A stretch of 57,652 nucleotides of DNA from Bacteroidia bacterium. GTDB taxonomy: Bacteria > Bacteroidota > Bacteroidia > SpSt-205. The notes under the pieces were generated by a model. The model searched no databases and was not told where the DNA came from. It was given only the letters and a program-made list of their open reading frames with translations. The stretch covers positions 1-57,652 of the forward strand of contig JANWXY010000002.1 in NCBI GenBank assembly GCA_025057135.1, in the 5' to 3' direction. Position 1 is the first letter of the stretch, and each line of letters opens with the position of its first letter. Positions 28,822 to 28,871 of this stretch are shown here, in pieces. The translations under genes and the position numbers were made by a program.

Positions 28822-28871
28822 GGGGGGGGGGGGCGGGGCCCCCCCCCCCCCCCCCCCCCCCCCCCCCCCCC
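28822..28871. repeat. Homopolymer tract G12-C-G4-C33
   Basis: Twelve G (28822-28833), one C, four G (28835-28838), then 33 C (28839-28871). It lies between the terminator of the giant surface-protein gene and the start of rlpA, and the G and C runs could fold back on each other. Such length is extreme for a chromosome of balanced composition. It may be a slipping tract or an assembly artefact. Confidence 0.85.

Follow-up and report, generated by a model that had tools for sequence, protein, structure and literature searches.

A G-to-C homopolymer tract between a giant gene and an rlpA-like gene as a probable sequencing and assembly artefact at a GC-rich palindromic terminator region

The window considered here, a stretch of 57,652 bases that forms the whole of contig C76 in a draft genome of 2,079,685 bases and 94 contigs, contains an rlpA-like gene and a giant open reading frame (ORF), both on the minus strand, with an unusual run of G and C residues lying between them. 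The features of this region, from left to right, are as follows.

28083 to 28733, minus strand: rlpA-like gene with DPBB_1 and SPOR domains, its 5' end towards the tract.
28763 to 28821, plus strand: G/T-rich, C-poor shoulder, resembling the shoulders of other tracts and of intact GC palindromes.
28822 to 28838, no strand assigned: G12-C-G4, probable dark-cycle G calls in reads leaving the rlpA side, with the same G-first order as in 31 of 31 contig-end tracts.
28839 to 28871, no strand assigned: C33, probably the same phenomenon on the other strand, that is, G33 in the outward direction from the giant gene.
28880 to 28905, minus strand: 26-nt perfect palindrome AAGGGCAGCTGCGCGCAGCTGCCCTT, the likely intrinsic terminator of the giant gene.
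28927 to 34746, minus strand: giant ORF of 1,939 aa with a DUF11 match, its 3' end towards the tract.

The tract at 28822-28871 consists of G12 (28822-28833), a single C (28834), G4 (28835-28838) and C33 (28839-28871), letter for letter as given in the preliminary description, which had rightly called it highly unusual. No other homopolymer in the window is longer than 8, the next longest being exactly 8, and the G+C content of the window is a balanced 50.3%, so that chance is excluded as an account of these letters. The two runs are indeed able to pair as a hairpin, with 13-bp arms across 28822-28850, and the distance to the start of rlpA, earlier put at about 90-140 nt, is 88-138 nt upstream. 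The tract also lies beside the end of the giant gene, as had been described, 55 nt past the stop of the 1,939-aa ORF, where the palindrome at 28880-28905 (9 nt from the tract, with 13-bp arms and 69% GC) follows the gene as its likely terminator; the T tract expected of an intrinsic terminator is represented for this palindrome only by TTTGTAGTGT before the G run. A second perfect palindrome of 26 nt, GCAGTCCATCAAGCTTGATGGACTGC, is found at 57101-57126 of the window, close to the contig end. On both sides of the tract the sequence is ordinary and occurs once in the genome, which rules out a fixed repeat family. The tract is internal to its contig and contains no N gap. Given an internal position with ordinary single-copy flanks, the two sides were presumably connected by at least some reads or read pairs.

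What else in the genome resembles this tract? Runs of G or C of at least 10 occur at 51 boundaries, which were merged by hand into 35 sites, and 31 of these sites are no more than 167 nt from a contig end, where 0.5 would be expected. The four sites away from contig ends are a C10 in contig C37, a G10 and a G26 in contig C48, and the tract at 28822-28871. In the outward direction G makes up the first run of at least 7 at all 31 contig-end tracts, which therefore have the outward G runs at the point where reads stop that characterise the two-colour poly-G artefact, the present tract being internal. A C run follows the G run at 14 of the 31 ends, and the sequence beyond the C run is 61% A and 22% C (657 nt from the 10 ends with at least 20 nt left). 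At 29 of the 31 contig ends, with C22 and the left end of C94 excepted, the long ORF closest to the tract has its 3' end on the tract side, an orientation that was read by eye; the left side of the tract at 28822-28871, unlike these 29, meets a 5' end, that of rlpA. A run length fixed by the assembler k-mer (33) was considered and rejected, as the other runs, judged by eye, have lengths without such a pattern. After the G26 in C48 (G000:C48:47336; L070 at about 2338), which is situated 2 kb from a contig end, come CCCC and GC-rich sequence, and this run may have arisen through the same artefact or through a wrong join.

Phase-variable poly-G and poly-C tracts are well known in Neisseria and Campylobacter, where they are single runs in a promoter or a reading frame, and the tract had been suggested to be a slippage-prone element of this type. 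On this reading it would be a real homopolymer whose changes in length switch rlpA expression. Real-looking single G/C tracts do exist in this genus. For instance, a single tract at one intergenic site has a length of 19 in G005 (C19; L043 1502-1520) and 29 in G007 (C29; L044 1486-1514); it lies between cystathionine gamma-synthase-like and PAS/phosphatase-like genes (names read from their translations), upstream of the latter, and is absent in the eight other genus genomes with a readable site. This tract is a candidate for true phase variation, and another candidate phase-variable tract is a G16 in G005 (L097 2048-2063), in frame within an apparent signal peptide close to the beginning of a large, G/T-rich ORF. 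These examples, however, are lone runs inside contigs, whereas the tract at 28822-28871 is a G-to-C pair with one C interrupting it. A tract at the same site in relatives, which would lend support to phase variation although it is not required for it, was sought in the related genomes and is present in none of the nine with a readable region upstream of rlpA, the tenth ending at a contig edge. Together with the placement of nearly all G/C-run sites of this genome at contig ends, these findings leave the suggestion of phase variation unsupported and extremely improbable, and the tract should not be taken as a phase-variation switch.

The order of the two runs is a more general property. The pattern G10-N(0-30)-C10 gives 52 overlapping matches in the genome itself and none in the reversed order, and over 60 genomes it occurs in 6, with 135 overlapping matches against 1 for C-then-G. 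Within the genus, four of the ten other genomes (G002, G004, G006 and G010) contain matches, and the pattern was not found in the remaining six (G001, G003, G005, G007, G008 and G009). The contig names of several of these relatives, some of them without matches, are in what we take to be SPAdes or MEGAHIT style, and since six of the ten genomes, some of them SPAdes-style, are without a G-to-C match, not every short-read draft is affected. G005, which is a single contig, and G007 are Katase genomes of species other than the source of the window. The Katase study used PacBio HiFi reads and metaFlye assembly, according to the available part of its report (PMC9671151), where G005 is named as KatS3mg025; G007, as KatS3mg026, which did not turn up in the main text, is tied to the study by its name only. 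The genomes searched include no second assembly of the same species as the source. Three internal tracts of G004 and G006, taken from a longer list, were opened (G004 C136, G004 C191 and G006 C47), and each of them has a 10-N gap no more than about 100 nt away. The available part of PMC11071339 describes NovaSeq data from Sungai Klah, with accession ranges that differ from those of the SKY/SKW relatives. Of the preliminary suggestions, that of an assembly error is the one supported, by 31 of 35 like sites at contig ends, by the fixed outward G-first order and by long-read relatives that are without G-to-C tracts.

The nature of the sites themselves is indicated by the sequence that leads into them. 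In the last 20 nt before the G run the G+T content is 0.74, measured at 28 of the 31 contig ends; C12, C55 and C66 were left out, where the first run of at least 8 is of C, although they too are G-first at a limit of 7. Intact palindromes outside the tracts (stem of at least 11, GC of at least 0.9) number 4 in 397 kb of the same genome, 2 of them between convergent genes, and all 4 have G/T-rich shoulders (0.64-0.84). The idea that such shoulders are a general property of gene ends was rejected, since convergent intergenic regions have a mean G+T of only 0.52 in this genome and 0.50 in G005, and the shoulders accompany strong palindromes. Likewise, loss of signal alone (A to T, C to G) need not be invoked to explain them, because intact palindromes share them, and the C-poor shoulder at 28763-28821 is probably real sequence. 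A 400-kb sample of G005, a long-read assembly, contains similar palindromes, and there they consist of G and C intermixed. Four perfect GC-rich palindromes are packed into 130 nt of G005 (L135 8378-8507), flanked by convergent genes, and form a terminator-like cluster of unusual density. No homopolymer was found at any of five orthologous gene ends sampled in G005, though the intergenic regions there differ. In the hairpin of G006 C47 one arm is ordinary and the 18 nt facing it are all G, with 9 mismatches, each of which is a G. Thus the gene-end sites, the shoulders, the intact palindromes, the orthologous ends of G005 and the G006 arm together suggest that the runs mark GC palindromes, most likely ones that were impassable to reads. 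Most tracts have no visible palindrome before the G run, and for these a hidden palindrome would be deduced from the tracts that show one. Separately, palindromes with a similar core, GCCAGCGCC / GGCGCTGGC, follow a number of different genes both here and in G006 (L160 13353-13385, L152 18188-18216, L084, L095), as though this were a common terminator sequence.

A real G/C hairpin would also show the G-then-C order and would also break assemblies, which is a counterpoint to an artefact. The tract could then be a real and fixed palindrome acting as an extreme bidirectional terminator or barrier that is hard to sequence, and the position of 29 of 31 sites after genes, the reality of very GC-rich palindromes in a long-read relative and the compatibility of the order with a hairpin are all in keeping with this. 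The palindromes of the long-read relatives, however, are mixtures of G and C, the G-to-C pattern has no match in either G005 or G007, the five orthologous gene ends in G005 have no run (with the same proviso on their intergenic regions), and the C runs give way to A/C-rich junk of low complexity. A fixed palindrome of this type is therefore improbable. Extended to the genus, the same idea would have these hot-spring Bacteroidia end many transcripts with giant, variable-length palindromes of pure G and C, serving as bidirectional terminators or barriers that the long-read relatives simply do not possess, which is more improbable again. Of the original proposal of a structural barrier, one part stands, in that a real GC-rich palindrome is probably located here and stops the sequencer; the homopolymer itself would be the scar and not the barrier.

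The best explanation, to which a probability of about 0.87 is given, is that the tract arose as an artefact of sequencing and assembly where a very GC-rich palindromic terminator region separates the giant gene from rlpA, and that G12-C-G4-C33 is very probably not genomic DNA. Fundamental to this reading are the distribution of the runs at contig ends, their order, their absence in the long-read relatives and the GC palindromes nearby, to which a probable role for the instrument, for signal loss and for a join is added. In two-colour chemistry T is seen as green, C as red, A as both and G as neither, and a lasting loss of signal yields poly-G up to the end of the read, as set out in the available part of PMC13218037. 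Errors of Illumina sequencing around inverted repeats and GC-rich motifs are reported in the available part of PMC4719071. Short reads entering the palindrome from either side would lose their signal within it. A two-colour Illumina instrument would call the dark cycles as G, such that reads from the left side would finish in G; those from the right side would do likewise on the other strand, and their G would appear as C on the plus strand. The assembler would then join both ends, generating G12-C-G4-C33.

If the ends were joined in this manner, were they neighbours to begin with? A false join of unrelated contig ends through poly-G/poly-C junk is compatible with the artefact as an addition to it, and would mean that the giant gene and rlpA are not adjacent in the genome. 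The internal tracts at scaffold joins with N gaps in G004 and G006 are consistent with such an event, as is the sequence upstream of rlpA, which by eye is different in each of nine relatives. Against this, the two sides were assigned to a single contig within a single bin, and members of the genus in any case do not share a common gene order upstream of rlpA. Several relatives have a particular gene ahead of rlpA, and the homologue of that gene in the present genome is on another contig with ordinary downstream sequence. Because the upstream order is not conserved, gene order does not decide the matter; a false join is a tentative suggestion, rather unlikely on balance but deserving of some weight, and that the giant gene and rlpA are neighbours is to be treated as unproven.

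Reading the tract as an artefact has consequences beyond this locus. About thirty such probable scars are present in this draft genome, and in drafts more generally G-to-C runs may take the place of strong GC terminator palindromes; runs of this kind look like exotic biology in raw sequence and mark the places where such drafts fragment.

The tract can finally be placed beside the systems that it resembles. With the phase-variable tracts of Neisseria and Campylobacter it shares a long G/C run near a gene start, beside a large surface-type gene, but it pairs a G run with a C run, is located in a terminator region, and belongs to a genome in which 31 contig ends carry similar tracts. With intrinsic terminators the likeness lies in the 26-nt palindrome beside the tract and in the intact GC palindromes elsewhere in the genome, whereas a pure G-to-C run serves as a terminator in neither long-read relative. 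The Illumina errors at inverted repeats and GC-rich motifs, as far as the available part of PMC4719071 describes them, similarly reflect failure at GC-rich palindromes, although there they are seen as raised error rates and not as long G runs. The poly-G artefact, as presented in the available part of PMC13218037, has G runs that start where the signal fails and proceed outward from good sequence, with low-complexity junk after them, as is the case here; there it is a problem of read ends that can be trimmed, whereas here it would be fixed in the assembly, on both strands, and joined G-to-C.
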